From Papiliotrema nemorosa (Eukaryota; Basidiomycota; Tremellomycetes; Tremellales; Rhynchogastremaceae), in contig JASKOT010000028.1 in assembly GCA_032158125.1 (NCBI GenBank), positions 62,001 through 126,000 of the forward strand: a stretch of 64,000 bases of DNA, read 5' to 3'. Below the pieces are notes generated by a model. It was not told the DNA's origin. It ran no database searches and saw only the letters and a program-made list of their open reading frames with translations. Both the position numbers and the translations under genes were made by a program. Below are positions 736-42,667 of the stretch, in pieces (position 1 is the stretch's first letter; each line of letters opens with the position of its first letter).

Positions 736-1938
736 ATGAACTCTAGCTCGAGACAGATGACCAAGTCCAACAGGAATCTACGCCCCGCGTGAGTCATACC
801 CGGGCTCCATCTCATGTCCGGGCATGTCGGCTGATGGTCTAGCGGTGCCCTGGGAAGCATCGGTACAGGGGCAGACTCACTCCCTCTCTTATTCAACCCG
901 AACTACAACCACGACGAGCAGAGCTCGAATCCACCTCTGGCTATCGCTCGAGTCGGAGGTCAAGGTGGCTCAGTCTTCGTTTACGCGGATGGACCTCTCG
1001 TGGTGGGCTCCCAAGGAGGTTGCACTTCCTTTGCTGGCGGTGGCAGGCAGTGGTTTTGACGAAGGCAGGAGGAGAACGCCCGTCGTAAGTTGCCGTCGGA
1101 GCAGGCTAGTTGAGGACAAGCGCTGATGAATCTGTAGGACATTGTCGGCGGGTCGCCAAGGAGAGTGAGAGAGTCCTTGACGTCCTACCTGTTCCCCACC
1201 TCTCAAACAACCGCACATCAGAACAGTGGGACGATGTCGGGGTATATATCAAATACCACAAACCTTTTGACCCCTCCATCCTCCTTCACCCACAACTCCC
1301 ACGCGCAGCCCATCCCATCAGTCTCTCAAGAGCTGGATCTATCGCATTCTCTCCCTTTATCACCCGCCGCATCTGACGATTCACTTGAGAATCGTCTACC
1401 TTCAGCTGCAAGGGATTCGACGACTCTAGAGGAAGCAATACCTCTCATCGCTGCGCTTTTCCCTTATTATTCGTCTCATCTGGCTAGATCATCGACAGTT
1501 CTGGAGATCGTCACACCCCCTGATCACGTTTTAACGGGCTTCATATGCGATTTGCCGACCGGAAGGACTGTTTATGTGCACCTGCCTCCCCCGCACATCT
1601 CGTCGCATCGGCCGGAAGCTTTAGGCGGCAACTTCTCAGAGGTCCTGCGACCACATGATCCATCGAAGAGCCCTTCACGTCAGGCAAATTCGCCTTTGGA
1701 CGGCATGGACATACGAGAATCTTTGACAGCCCTGCTTGATCTGGCGTCGGAGTCATTGAATGCGAAAGCGCTGGTGCTGGCTTTGGATAAGAATGATAGG
1801 GAAAGGGAAGGATTGGACGAGTTGCTGCATTCGCTCATGTATGCTGGAGGTCAGGTTTTGCCGCCTGGCCAGGGCGCACTGGACGGTGGGTGGGAGTGGG
1901 ATCCCACAAAGTGGGTGTTGGTAGGTTTGGAGTTGTAA
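736..1938 (+). CDS. Ornithine decarboxylase antizyme, decoded by +1 frameshifting
   Basis: Antizyme binds ornithine decarboxylase and delivers it to the 26S proteasome, and it blocks polyamine uptake; polyamines themselves stimulate the frameshift. Exons are 736-788, 843-1084 and 1138-1938. ORF1 runs 89 codons and stops at TGA 1057-1059. ORF2 is open in the +1 frame from GAC at 1058 through the second intron to TAA at 1938, giving about 364 aa. ORF2 carries the antizyme core: FICDLPTGRTVYV, then ESLTALLDLASESLNAK, ALVLALDKND and LLHSLMYAGG, ending WVLVGLEL. An upstream in-frame ATG at 574 exists, but 736 (MNSSSRQMTK) fits the usual ORF1 length better. Introns of 54 and 53 nt are supported by frame and by GT/AG sites. 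The identification is from motif order, not from a search. Confidence 0.85.
1051..1060 (+). other. Programmed +1 ribosomal frameshift site of the antizyme gene
   Basis: The codons read TGG TTT TGA C. Decoding TTT, skipping the T of TGA and resuming at GAC joins ORF1 to ORF2. Without a shift the protein would end after 89 residues with no antizyme domain. The shift stop is UGA, as in known antizymes, but the P-site codon is UUU and the base after UGA is C, whereas the common motif is UCC UGA U. No intron with GT/AG boundaries was found that removes the stop in frame. Confidence 0.78.
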
Positions 1939-2256: not shown

Positions 2257-5200
2257 ATGGCTTCGCACCTCATCATACCAGAGTCGCCCATGATTCAGAC
2301 AGGCTTTCCGAGTCCCGATGTGAACCGCCCAGAATCATCCTCATCGCGGCATCACGCCCCCTTGCCCCGTTTTCTCGCCGACCCTTCGCCTTCCGCTATC
2401 CTCCCCCTGCTGGAGGAAGCTCGGATTGAGAGAGATAGCAAAGGTAAAGGAAACGACCTGCGGACGAGGTTGATCTTGCGACATGCCATAAAGTGGGCCG
2501 TGGAGAGGTGGGACACGGATTTACTGTCATGGTTGATCAACCTCAAGGATGAATGGGTAAGCGACCCATCTTCAACACTGTTGCTTATACTTATGATGAT
2601 CGGAGTTTGACTGATGATCTCAGTCAGCAATCCTGGACGAAGAAATACATGCACTGGAAGATGAAGATGGTTGGAATCTGCTGGGCATGGCCATCCAATC
2701 CTCCTGCGGTCGACAAGAAGCAGAAGAAGGGGTCCGTCTGATTGTATCTCGTTGGGGGATCGTCTTTGGTCCTCGAGGAGGGACTGATCGCTCCGGCTGG
2801 ACCCCTCTTCATCTTGCATCCTTGATCTCTACGCCTCCCCTCATCTCGTTCCTGCTCAATCGCGGCGCATCGCCTCACGCGCTCACTTCTCGTGGTTTGA
2901 CTCCGCTCGACTTGGTTTCTGGAATGCCCGACCGAGCGGATATAGCAGTCTTCCTCGAACATTCTTCAGCTTCAGCTTTGGTCCCCCCTACGATGGATGA
3001 GACTAGCTTATCAGCCCGTCGACAAGTCATGCTATCTCGACGCCGGTTAAGGGCCGCCGAAAAGCTGAGAAGACTGGACGAGGAAGGGAGGACATGGCAA
3101 ATGGAGCAAGACCGAGAGCGGTGGGTCAGGGATCTAGCGAGCCTGGTGGAAGTCTCGCCTGAGCTCTTATTGGCCGACTCCAAAAACGCGAAACGAAGGA
3201 TCTCGCATGATTCGGGATTAGGCGAGACGGCGGATTGGCAGAATGACATGGACACCGAGCAGGAGGATTCAGAGGACGACGAAGAAGGGTCTCAAGGCAA
3301 CGTTGGTCTAGACGAGAGCAACGACTCGATGTTGGTATTCTCGCTCCAGAACTTACCGATGATTTTCGACATCCTCATCTCGACATATCGACCAGTCTGT
3401 TCACCGCTCGAGGAGAGGACCCTACCGGCGAATACGTTGTATCTTTACGCTAGATTTGCGTTTTACCGCTGTGACGCAAGCTGGCTGGAGGAGCTATTGG
3501 ACGGGACGGTGGAGAGGATAGAGCAGGGTGTGTACGTGAGTTGGGAGATCGACATATTCCCCGGCAAGCTAATGGAGCAGAGTAATGTCGAGGACCTCGC
3601 GTATTTAGCATTTTGGGCCTATAACTCAACCGTGTTGCTGCATCTCCTGCGGAGTGATACAAAATTGGCTGAAGCTTGCGAAACTGAGGAGGTGAATTTT
3701 CTAGGCTTATTGGAGGAGTTGATCAATGCGATTCACGGTGCATTTCCCATCTTTGCAATATGTCGACAGCTGATGGCGGACAGTTTTCATCATTCGAGTG
3801 GCAGAACGGCGCATCGATGGGATCCTTGACGCCGCCATACTCGACTACGAGCCTTTGGAAGACTTTAACGACGTTCGGTTCGAAGGGGAGTGGACGCTAT
3901 TCAAGTCCTTTGGTGCAAAACGGCGCCAGGTGATCCCTAAAGCGTCGCAAATTTTCGGCAACGGCGGCAGTCCGACTCTGAACGGTAACGGAGACGGCTC
4001 GAGCTCGCCCAGTCTCCTCGGAACATTCCGCGACAATGTAGCTGCAGCATCGACTTTGAAGTCGTTGGCAAGTCGAACCTCTATACAAGATCTTCGCAGC
4101 GCTCACGCCGTTCGATCGTCATCTATGGACTCGCTCGCAACAGTTGCTGGGAACAGCTTGGGCAACGGAGCCGACTCGGCAATGAGCCCGAAGCAGATTA
4201 CCGATATCTTATCGGGGGTTCTACTAGTCTTACAGCTGTACGAGGTCAACCCTGCGGTGACAATACAAGCTTTCTCTCAGGTGTTCTTTTGGATCTCCTG
4301 CGAGCTGTTCAACCGAATCTTGACGCGTAAAAAGTACTTGTGCAGGAGTAAAGCTGTGCAAATCCGGATGAATATCACCGTCTTGGAAGATTGGGTTCGA
4401 GCAAATGGACTACCGACACAAACGGCTTCCAAATATCTCGAGCCGACCACTCAACTTTTACGATGGCTTCAGTGTTTGTCGCAGGTCAGAGAGTTCGACA
4501 CTTTGATCGGCACTATGCAGAATCTCAAATCCATCAATCCATTGCAAATGCGCAAAGCCGTTCGAGATTACCGGTACGAAGTCAATGAAGGCAGGATGAC
4601 AGACGAGTGCGCGCAATACCTTTCCCAGTTGCAAAAGGATTGGGAAAAGCGGCGAGTGCAGATTGGCGCGGAAGCTGTCCAAGCATCTCGGAAACGACTT
4701 TCAGACGGGTCATCATCGGACTCGGGCACCGATCACTCGACGCCTATCGACGACCTCTTTGATGGGACCACCGCGTTGGCAGACTTTGTACCTCAAGCAC
4801 CGCCAGAATGTCTGGGAGAGCTGCTCGATAGTCGGCACATGTTGCCGTTTGTTCTGCCCTCGAAAGTCGAATATCTCGTTGCGACCCCACCGAGCGGAGC
4901 GGCTTTTGTCATTGCGCATATCACTACACCGGCGGCGGACGGGTCTAGGCTGGTGTCTGCGCCGACTAGTCGATCCTCCTTCTCTTCTTCCCGTCCAATG
5001 GGCTGGAGCCTTCCTGATCAGCGCAAATTGAAGAGATTGCCTCGGCAATTCTTTCGCTGGCTCAAGGATCAAGAGTCGGAACGTCGATATCACCGCGATG
5101 CGCTTCGTCCGAGAAGCACGATAGGACTGGCGCTTGATCCGCCTTTGGGTCCAAGTCAGCGACTTTCACTTCGACCCATGTTGGACACCGGTTCACTGCC

Positions 5201-5717
5201 TCGTGTCAGCGAAGATGACAACAAGACACCTGTTGTGAGCTCGCACTCTCAATCCCTCTCCGCCGGCTTCCCCAGTCCGAATTTGCGTACGAGTGAAAGT
5301 CTGGACCGACTGAGAGAACAAGCAAGAAGAGTTCCATTCGAAACGGTGGATCATCCTCGCCATGTGCGGGAGAACAGTTTCGAGCTGAAACAGCGCAACT
5401 CGATACAGTCTCTTCCAAGTAGGATCGAGAGGTCTCCAGCGACACCTATGAAGGTACCCCAATCGGCTCCGGTAATCAGCTCCCCCTTGGCACCGCGGTA
5501 TGAGATGCCAAAGTGGCAAGGGCCAGGTATAACAGGGTCGACATCGTCGAGTATGACGGGATCTGAGAGTGGCCTGAGCCCGGATAGCTTGAGAGAGAGC
5601 AGTAGTGGACGAAAGTGGTGGAAGCTGGGTAGAACAGTCTCGAGCAGCAGCAGTGTGAGCAGCGAAGGCGAGCGGAAGAGGAGAGAGGATAGCGATGATA
5701 CGATTGTCAGGGGATAA
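2257..5717 (+). CDS. DIL (dilute) and ankyrin-repeat domain protein
   Basis: Exons 2257-2556, 2624-3737 and 3784-5717 give 1115 aa with no internal stop. An ankyrin repeat is clear at about residues 190-235 (GWTPLHLASL, LLNRGASPHA, GLTPLDLVSG). The C-terminal half holds a DIL domain of the kind found in the cargo-binding tail of class V myosin: it starts near VAERRIDGILDAAILDYEP and includes LLVLQLYEVNP, QVFFWISCELFNRIL, RMNITVLEDWVRANGLP and PLQMRKAVRDYRYE. The tail after about residue 820 is Ser-rich and low in complexity. Fungal proteins with this architecture are known only as DIL and ankyrin domain proteins; a role in organelle or vesicle tethering is an inference from the DIL domain. 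It lacks a myosin motor. Confidence 0.85.
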
Positions 5718-40567: not shown

Positions 40568-42667
40568 ATGGCCTCAAAGCCATTCTACTCTCTCATCATT
40601 GCTGCATACCCAGACGCAGATAATCAGGCCGTCACACGATTGGGAGAGATAAACGTTGATTGGGTGGATTTCACCCGGGAAAAGAGCTCGGATAGACCTC
40701 CTTCACCTCCTTTACCAATCATGAAACCTTCATCGTCCAGACGACGCAATCCGAATCACAAACCCATCCCTGGATCATCTATCACAAATGGACCTTCCTC
40801 TGGACATTCGAAAGCTGCTAACGGAATCAATGGGGCTCACGGAAACACGCCAGATGACTTGTCGCTTCAACCGCTCCTGGGTCATGTTCCCGGTCCAAAT
40901 CCCCTTGATACCTCGTCGGCATCAGGTATAAGTACCTTTGGACGTGGAATAGTCCATCTGTTCCGCCACGCCCCTCCGCCGACTCTGATCGCTTCCCTCG
41001 ACGCACATCCTCTCGGTGAATCTTCCTCTTCAGCTGTTGAAGAGGGCGACTGGGCTGGAGAAAGGGCAGAAGGTGAGGATGGGAGCTTGATTGCTATATT
41101 AGCCGTTCCTGCCTGGATGCGACCTGCCGATTTTCTAGAGTTTATCGGGGGTTGGGCGACATGTCTAGAAGGAGTCAGAATGATCAGGTATGAGCTCCAT
41201 CCAGCTCGAGCCGAGGAAGATTGCTGATCAAGCTAGAGAAGCGACGACTCCTAATCGATCAATTGTCCTGCTTAAATTCCGTGATCCTCTCCAGGCGGCA
41301 GATTTCCTGGTCATCTTCACCGGAAGACCGTTCTCCACTCTTGATGCAAGAGAGACGTGCCACCCTATTCGTATACACCACCTTGTATTGCACCATGTCG
41401 AATCGCCAACCACCTCACCGACCGCTATACCCGCTTTTCCACCATCCACCTATTCGTCGCGCGCCAAAGCTCTTGCTTCGCTACTCAAGGGCGTCCCGAC
41501 CGAGACTATATACGAGCTACCCTCCTGTCCGGTGTGTCTGGAGAGACTGGACTCTTCAGTTACGGGTCTAGTCACCTTGCCTTGCGCCCATACGTTCGAC
41601 TGCGATTGTTTGCGAAAATGGGGCGACTCGAGGTGTCCAGTCTGCCGGGTATCACACCTCCTGCTCTCCAGCTCGTATCCGTCGAGGGATTCAGCATCGG
41701 AAATCACCCGTCTGACTACGTGCGCGACGTGCGGATTGACTTCTGGGAATTGGATATGTGTCGTTTGTGGCGTAGTCGGATGCGGCCGGTACGAACCTGG
41801 CAAGGCACACGCGAGACGACATTGGGAGGAAAGCGGACATGTGCTGGCCATGGAGCTCGACACGCAACGAGTATGGGACTACAAAGGTGACAAGTGTGTG
41901 ATCCCATGCAGTCACAATGGTCGGCCGCTAATGACAGCTACGTGCATCGACTTATACAAACTCGAACAGATGGAAAACTCGTCGAGCTACCATCTGCATC
42001 ATCGCTTGTCACTTCCTCCGTCTCCCGTCCGTTACCCTTATCTAATCACTCCACACCCCAACGACCTTCGGTTGCGTCGCAAACCCCTTCTCCTGCTGCA
42101 GCGACTAGCTCTTTACACCGACACAATCCAAGTGCCGGACCGTCTAGCGATGATGTCGAGAAGATGTCTACAATCGAAGCGATCACCCTGGAATACTCTT
42201 ACCTACTCTCGTCACAGCTCGAGGCCATGCGACAGCACTATGAGAACGCGTCATTGGCTCAATCATCGCGATTAGAGGCGCTCGAGCTGGCTCAGTCCCG
42301 AGTGGTAGAAGCGGAAAAGGCCAAAGCGGAAGCTGAGGCCGCCAAGATGAAGGCGGAGAGAAAGGCTGACAAGGCTTCCGAGCTGACTCGGTCATTACAA
42401 GCGAGTCTGAGCGCCGAGAGAGCCATGTCGGAAGGATTGAGCGTCAGAGTAGGCAAGATGAGAGAGCAATTGGAGGAGATTGACCGGGTGAAACGTGAAA
42501 AGGAAGAAGAGGTCAAAGGGCTGGAAGAGACGGTGAGGGATCTGATGTTCTCCCTCGAGGCGGGGTTGAAGATACAAGAAGGTGGAGGTGAATCAGGAGA
42601 GGGCGGGTCATTGGTCGTGGTCCCTGGTAAGGAAAAGGACAAGGGGAAGAAGAAGAGTAAGAAATGA
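40568..42667 (+). CDS. ETP1: RING and UBP zinc-finger protein (Etp1/BRAP2 homologue)
   Basis: Exons 40568-41187, 41237-41893 and 41938-42667 give 668 aa. Order: an N-terminal RRM-like BRAP2 domain (SLIAILAVPAWMRPADFLEF, SIVLLKFRDPLQAADFLVIF), a RING-H2 finger (LPSCPVCLERLD, LPCAHTFDCDCLRKWGDSRC, PVCRVS), a UBP zinc finger (CATCGLTSGNWICVVCGVVG, CGRYEPGKAHARRHWEESGH) and a C-terminal coiled coil rich in Lys, Glu and Ala. BRAP2 is an E3 ligase that binds ubiquitin; the yeast homologue Etp1 is needed for ethanol tolerance and for turnover of certain transporters. The second intron joins DYKGDN to YVHRLIQTRTDGKLVELP, the usual sequence after the UBP finger. The C-terminal KEKDKGKKKSKK is strongly basic. 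Confidence 0.93.

Follow-up and report, generated by a model that had tools for sequence, protein, structure and literature searches.

How is one antizyme protein made from two open reading frames (ORFs) that lie in different frames, the first of them closed by a stop codon? The question is raised by a locus in Papiliotrema nemorosa (contig JASKOT010000028.1, positions 62,001 to 126,000 of the forward strand; this stretch of 64,000 nucleotides (nt) is referred to as the window), in which a short first frame, ORF1, ends at TTT TGA C and a second, ORF2, carries the antizyme domain. The locus is almost certainly a functional ornithine decarboxylase (ODC) antizyme gene of a Tremellomycete, with a predicted +1 frameshift at UUU-UGA and presumed polyamine control. 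The gene adds one more lineage to the already known basidiomycete UUU-UGA pattern, and the less expected features are a pre-shift peptide and a 3' hairpin that flank the site, both of them computational findings.

ORF2 matches the Pfam family PF02100 (E 9.9e-14, 51.7 bits, cut-off 24.2), and this is the single match to that family reported in the 19.2 Mb assembly. The ORF2 product gives a fold match to solved antizymes, and the same genome also encodes an ODC-type domain. A tree built from 40 antizyme proteins places the window protein within a supported set of seven rows (99/98) that lies among named Tremellomycetes, apart from two Agaricomycetes. The protein nearest to it is P0008 (66% identity), and the best named match among those listed is from Naematelia encephala (53% over 97%).

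Read directly in the sequence, ORF1 joins 736-788 to 843-1056 (267 nt, 89 codons) and ends with TGG (1051-1053) and TTT (1054-1056), followed by TGA (1057-1059) and C (1060). The +1 frame runs from GAC at 1058 across the intron at 1085-1137 for 275 codons, and its stop ends at 1938. The initial annotation had proposed that a +1 shift at TTT TGA C joins ORF1 to the antizyme domain, with UGA as the ORF1 stop, and this arrangement is indeed present; both ORFs contain introns and look intact, as it had also stated, and the locus does not look like a pseudogene. The motif NRNL[RC]PA is found in relatives at the position matching ORF1 exon 1. In P0068 and P0070 the flanks of intron 1 are joined and the intron sequence is absent, three ORF predictions (P0001, P0002 and P0085) enter an apparently unspliced intron 1 at one common residue, and in P0007 and P0022 PVDIVGG is unbroken across the intron 2 junction.

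Do relatives stop at the same place? Protein searches gave 6 ORF1 relatives with the first query and 42, including those 6, with a wider one, for which the best 7,992 candidates by shared words were scored; by sequence reading, 20 of the 42 are Tremellomycete-type and 22 Agaricomycete-type. Among these listed matches, all 20 Tremellomycete-type relatives end at the shift site, 18 with Trp-Phe and two (P0068 and P0099) with Trp-Val, or 19 and 2 when the window is counted (n = 21); the stop in relatives is implied by the end of the predicted protein, as read from proteins alone. Because all 20 end at the same place, a pseudogene or a base-calling error is very unlikely. The error would have to lie in the TTTT run, a homopolymer in which the loss of one T would fuse the frames so that no shift is needed. 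With 20 of 20 listed relatives ending at the site, and the same arrangement published in sister classes (PMC4505036, cited throughout, like PMC5009743 and PMC12661321, from excerpts), the probability of such an error is negligible. Seven of the 22 Agaricomycete-type relatives end Trp-Arg-Phe (P0081, P0082, P0083, P0085, P0088, P0091 and P0097), and 14 end elsewhere, apparently inside an unspliced intron. Several longer named models, for example P0014, P0041 and P0059, from a search that scored the best 7,994 candidates by shared words, omit the shift site and are uninformative about it. The Agaricomycete-type P0084 continues past the site (...WRFWRPQSK), which would fit either UGG in place of UGA or translation under a code in which UGA means Trp.

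Models that read through the site reveal its codons, since a stop in the zero frame and Phe in the +1 frame imply NTT followed by TGA, and a following Glu or Asp implies a purine or a pyrimidine. A motif-filtered scan of 103 proteins found 14 that read through in the +1 frame, as G-F-[E/D] or A/V-F-D; ten are Tremellomycete-type (nine E, one D) and four Agaricomycete-type (all D), giving nine purines and five pyrimidines after the stop. P0073 (zero frame, ending RRWF) and P0043 (+1 frame, GGGFDEG) have contigs of identical source and length (2,537 nt) and are probably from one contig; read together, they give TGG TTT TGA plus a pyrimidine, matching the window. Given this variation in relatives, the C after the stop is not unusual, contrary to the initial annotation, and neither is the Phe codon in the P site: UUU-UGA was found in all 34 Agaricomycetes and one Dacrymycete analysed by Yordanova et al. 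2015 (PMC4505036). The decamer TGGTTTTGAC occurs at 41 places in the assembly, as compared to 31 for a reversed control; it is not rare by itself, and the weight therefore rests on its place and conservation. A tblastn search of viral and genome contig sets with an antizyme protein alignment returned no DNA of relatives.

Could the TGA be removed by splicing, so that the protein is made without frameshifting? A scan with donors at 845-1057, acceptors up to 1259 and introns of at least 36 nt found 85 combinations that remove the TGA in frame on paper, 38 with GT donors (13 donors) and 47 with GC donors, so the earlier statement that a shift is the only way to join the ORFs was too strong. None of the 85 has a GTNNGT donor (GTGGGC at 1003 fits partly), whereas both accepted introns do, and their donors, GTGAGT at 789 and GTAAGT at 1085, are the only GTNNGT sites in 736-1140. 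Every TGA-removing splice deletes the shift site, and most also delete the conserved FAGGG stretch. Named models from several Cryptococcus and Kwoniella species seem to connect the ORFs through an intron (for example ...GGGRRW followed by DDDIVG), which counts for splicing and against a shift; however, the C. gattii models are mutually inconsistent (P0013 versus P0040), and intron 1 sequence is missing from the Cryptococcus-type P0068, as expected from spliced RNA or from a gene lacking the intron, yet this protein ends at the site. P0068 is close to ORF1 of C. neoformans and C. gattii, and its source may be a spliced transcript in which the stop is retained. Removal of the TGA by an intron is thus highly improbable, and a +1 shift at UUU-UGA is preferred. 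In P0013, P0016, P0018 and P0033, for example (Cryptococcus and Kwoniella), the models apparently drop the shift site by means of a forced intron.

ORF2 might also be translated separately from a downstream ATG (1234), with ORF1 as an independent upstream ORF, and this in-frame ATG does precede the Pfam domain. However, of the 10 Tremellomycete-type models that span the region directly after the site, 8 keep the +1 peptide [ED]EGRR, conservation that separate initiation does not need, and ORF1 resembles the Agaricomycete antizyme ORF1, for which frameshifting was measured (PMC4505036). We give separate initiation almost no credence and retain the shift.

Antizymes are controlled by polyamines and inhibit ODC. 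At this locus, ribosomes would initiate at 736, translate ORF1 on the spliced mRNA, and arrive with UUU in the P site and UGA in the A site. When polyamines are scarce, most would terminate at UGA; when they are abundant, a larger fraction would shift +1, the peptidyl-tRNA(Phe) slipping from UUU at 1054-1056 to the overlapping UUU at 1055-1057 with full re-pairing. The next codon decoded would be GAC at 1058-1060, and the resulting 364-residue antizyme would inhibit ODC and mark it for degradation. That the slip occurs in this fungus, and that peptide and hairpin stimulate it, is what we infer from the arrangement. By pairing rules, tRNA-Phe on UUU can re-pair fully in the +1 frame, while UCC (to CCU) does not, and GUU (to UUU) would allow two of three pairs. 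Yeast shift sites with and without re-pairing have been argued to use two distinct mechanisms (PMC12661321).

Which elements might raise the rate of shifting? In Agaricomycetes, shifting is stimulated by a peptide that spans codons -15 to -5, and this stimulation depends on polyamines (PMC4505036). With the shift site as anchor, the Tremellomycete peptides largely match those of Agaricomycetes from -11 to -6, as [TS][TS]F[AS]GG, and among the Tremellomycete-type rows (n = 21) F stands at -9 in 16, G at -7 in 20 and G at -6 in all 21. A comparison with six Agaricomycete-type ORF1 sequences, excluding P0085 (it reads through the intron), gave a mean BLOSUM62 score over -15 to -2 of 9.3 as compared to a null of -12.5 (standard deviation 5.8) from 5,000 column permutations; a fraction of 0.0012 of these reach the anchored score, and offset 0 was the best of 26. 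The six read YYYSTTFSGGP at -15 to -5, and residues -15 to -12 are not shared by the Tremellomycete type. The conserved pre-shift peptide, a candidate nascent-peptide stimulator, would probably raise the shift rate.

On the 3' side, the spliced mRNA is predicted to form the hairpin GCCCGUCGAC-AUU-GUCGGCGGGU, with 10 pairs and a folding energy (dG) of -16.6, starting 18 nt after the stop; its 9-bp core starts 19 nt after the stop. Intron 2 splits the 5' arm, and the complete hairpin is found only in spliced mRNA. For its position the hairpin is unusually strong: among 3,000 synonymous recodings, 2 had a perfect hairpin as strong at 12-30 nt past the stop, as did 3 of 3,000 mononucleotide shuffles and none of 859 coding windows, and the eight hairpins of this kind counted over the two strands of the window correspond to 0.002 expected per 30 nt; the force of these figures is reduced by the hairpin measures having been chosen after the hairpin was seen, with only its position preset, by the literature. 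A putative two-stem 3' structure, starting 19 nt downstream of the site and preceded by AAAU, has been described for basidiomycetes, and its deletion cut shifting approximately 1.7- to 1.9-fold (PMC4505036). The window shares the stem start approximately 19 nt after the site, and in a 90-nt fold a second stem directly follows the hairpin, with a predicted second loop of 11 nt. We consider that the 3' hairpin probably raises the shift rate.

Several results weigh against these two elements. The AAAU abutting stem 1 is absent (the stretch before the stem is GGAGAAC), as is the conserved 7-nt loop 2, and because of these absences the hairpin was not assigned to the basidiomycete two-stem structure. 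Folding energy as compared to synonymous recoding was unexceptional in four of six stretches (0.465, 0.115, 0.27 and 0.06), with 0.0115 and 0.0185 in the other two. An hhalign comparison of the ORF1 profiles of the two classes gave a weak match (E 0.039, probability 1.3%); 16 of the 21 Tremellomycete-type rows went into it, and the alignment covered window residues 15-58 rather than the part adjoining the site. In the excerpts of PMC4505036, its four Tremellomycete sequences are reported as having no 3' structure and no amino-acid similarity near the site.

Within ORF1, a second perfect 10-bp hairpin lies at 933-960 (loop 8, dG -14.1), ends 93 nt before TTT, and overlies the conserved PPLAIARVGG codons. 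A stem 106 nt before the shift site has been described in Agaricomycetes (PMC4505036). An Rfam search of 700-1500 on the genomic, unspliced strand gave four matches, all far below gathering scores, and no antizyme element.

As compared to Agaricomycete antizyme mRNAs (Coprinopsis cinerea, PMC4505036), the window has the same UUU-UGA, ORF1/ORF2 arrangement, FxGG at -9 to -6 and stem approximately 19 nt downstream, and its pyrimidine after the stop recurs in all four Agaricomycete-type models that show this base. It differs in having UGG in place of CGU at codon -2, whereas Agaricomycetes carry UGG at -3 (W in 6 of 6), and it shares neither their YYYS at -15 to -12 nor, as noted, the AAAU before the stem and the 7-nt loop 2. 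Codon -2 is CGU in the published Agaricomycete and Dacrymycete set and UGG in some basidiomycetes outside the Agaricomycetes, and a CGU to UGG swap there did not reduce shifting (PMC4505036). Cryptococcus antizymes (P0068, P0013, P0016, P0040 and P0042) have a similar ORF1 peptide and the same end point. However, P0068 ends Trp-Val and P0040 and P0042 read GFE in the +1 frame, so that Cryptococcus appears, from these protein models, to use GUU-UGA followed by a purine, as compared to UUU-UGA-C in the window. P0099, from another lineage, likewise ends Trp-Val.

Further afield, Saccharomyces cerevisiae OAZ1 also shifts +1 at UGA followed by C, but its site, GCG_UGA_C, places GCG in the P site without apparent re-pairing, and inhibitory elements control the shift (PMC5009743, PMC12661321). 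UCC_UGA is the site in a substantial majority of antizymes; they share the +1 shift at UGA and polyamine control and differ in their P-site codon and, in mammals, in having a 3' pseudoknot just 3 nt away from the shift site (PMC5009743). Only PMC4505036, among the literature matches listed, bears on Tremellomycete antizymes.

We tentatively suggest, as a possibility we consider less likely than not, that the stimulators known from Agaricomycetes have an earlier origin than has been assumed: Tremellomycetes would also carry a nascent-peptide signal anchored at the shift site, with FAGG at its core, and the lineage of this fungus would have a different, intron-split 3' hairpin at the canonical distance, with the full signal only in spliced mRNA, while the P-site change between UUU and GUU in Cryptococcus would have occurred without loss of the system. 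A 2007 survey by Ivanov and Atkins, said to cover approximately 300 antizymes, may already list Tremellomycete shift codons, and for this reason UUU or GUU in Tremellomycetes is not claimed as unpublished. If the peptide and hairpin work, the gap for Tremellomycetes in the published survey would be filled, and the gene would offer a second test case of polyamine sensing by a nascent peptide and an example of a frameshift stimulator that splicing puts together. Related fungi with UUU and GUU would also allow full and partial P-site re-pairing to be compared in similar contexts.

Features of the antizyme locus, in window coordinates.
Feature	Position	Strand	Details
ORF1 exon 1	736..788	+	ATG at 736; encodes MNSSSRQMTKSNRNLRP plus 2 nt of an Ala codon
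Intron 1	789..842	+	GTGAGT...TCTAG
ORF1 exon 2, zero frame	843..1056	+	C-terminal end ...TSFAGGGRQWF
Pre-shift peptide T S F A G G G, codons -11 to -5	1024..1044	+	Conserved; candidate nascent-peptide stimulator (putative function)
Shift heptamer UUU UGA C	1054..1060	+	P-site Phe codon, ORF1 stop, 3' base
ORF2 part in exon 2, +1 frame	1058..1084	+	DEGRRRTPV
3' hairpin 5' arm, exon 2 part (7 of 10 nt)	1078..1084	+	
Intron 2	1085..1137	+	GTAAGT...CTGTAG
3' hairpin remainder	1138..1153	+	5' arm 1138-1140, loop ATT 1141-1143, 3' arm 1144-1153
ORF2 exon 3 with antizyme domain	1138..1938	+	PF02100 at ~1528-1935

Elsewhere, a search of the whole assembly for 5S rRNA (RF00001), in which the best 47 of 1017 first-look candidates were scored, gave no match at threshold. 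The next ORFs downstream of the antizyme gene (2257-5717) encode an ankyrin repeat and then a DIL domain (PF01843, E 1.5e-33) and are probably one gene, and a BRAP2-like RING/zf-UBP protein (PF02148, PF07576) is encoded at 41190-42275. On the minus strand, a divergent ORF at 122-529, which has no Pfam match, contains KENIRPLAGGRSAATLSSLF, a sequence that resembles the start of Bub1/Mad3 proteins.
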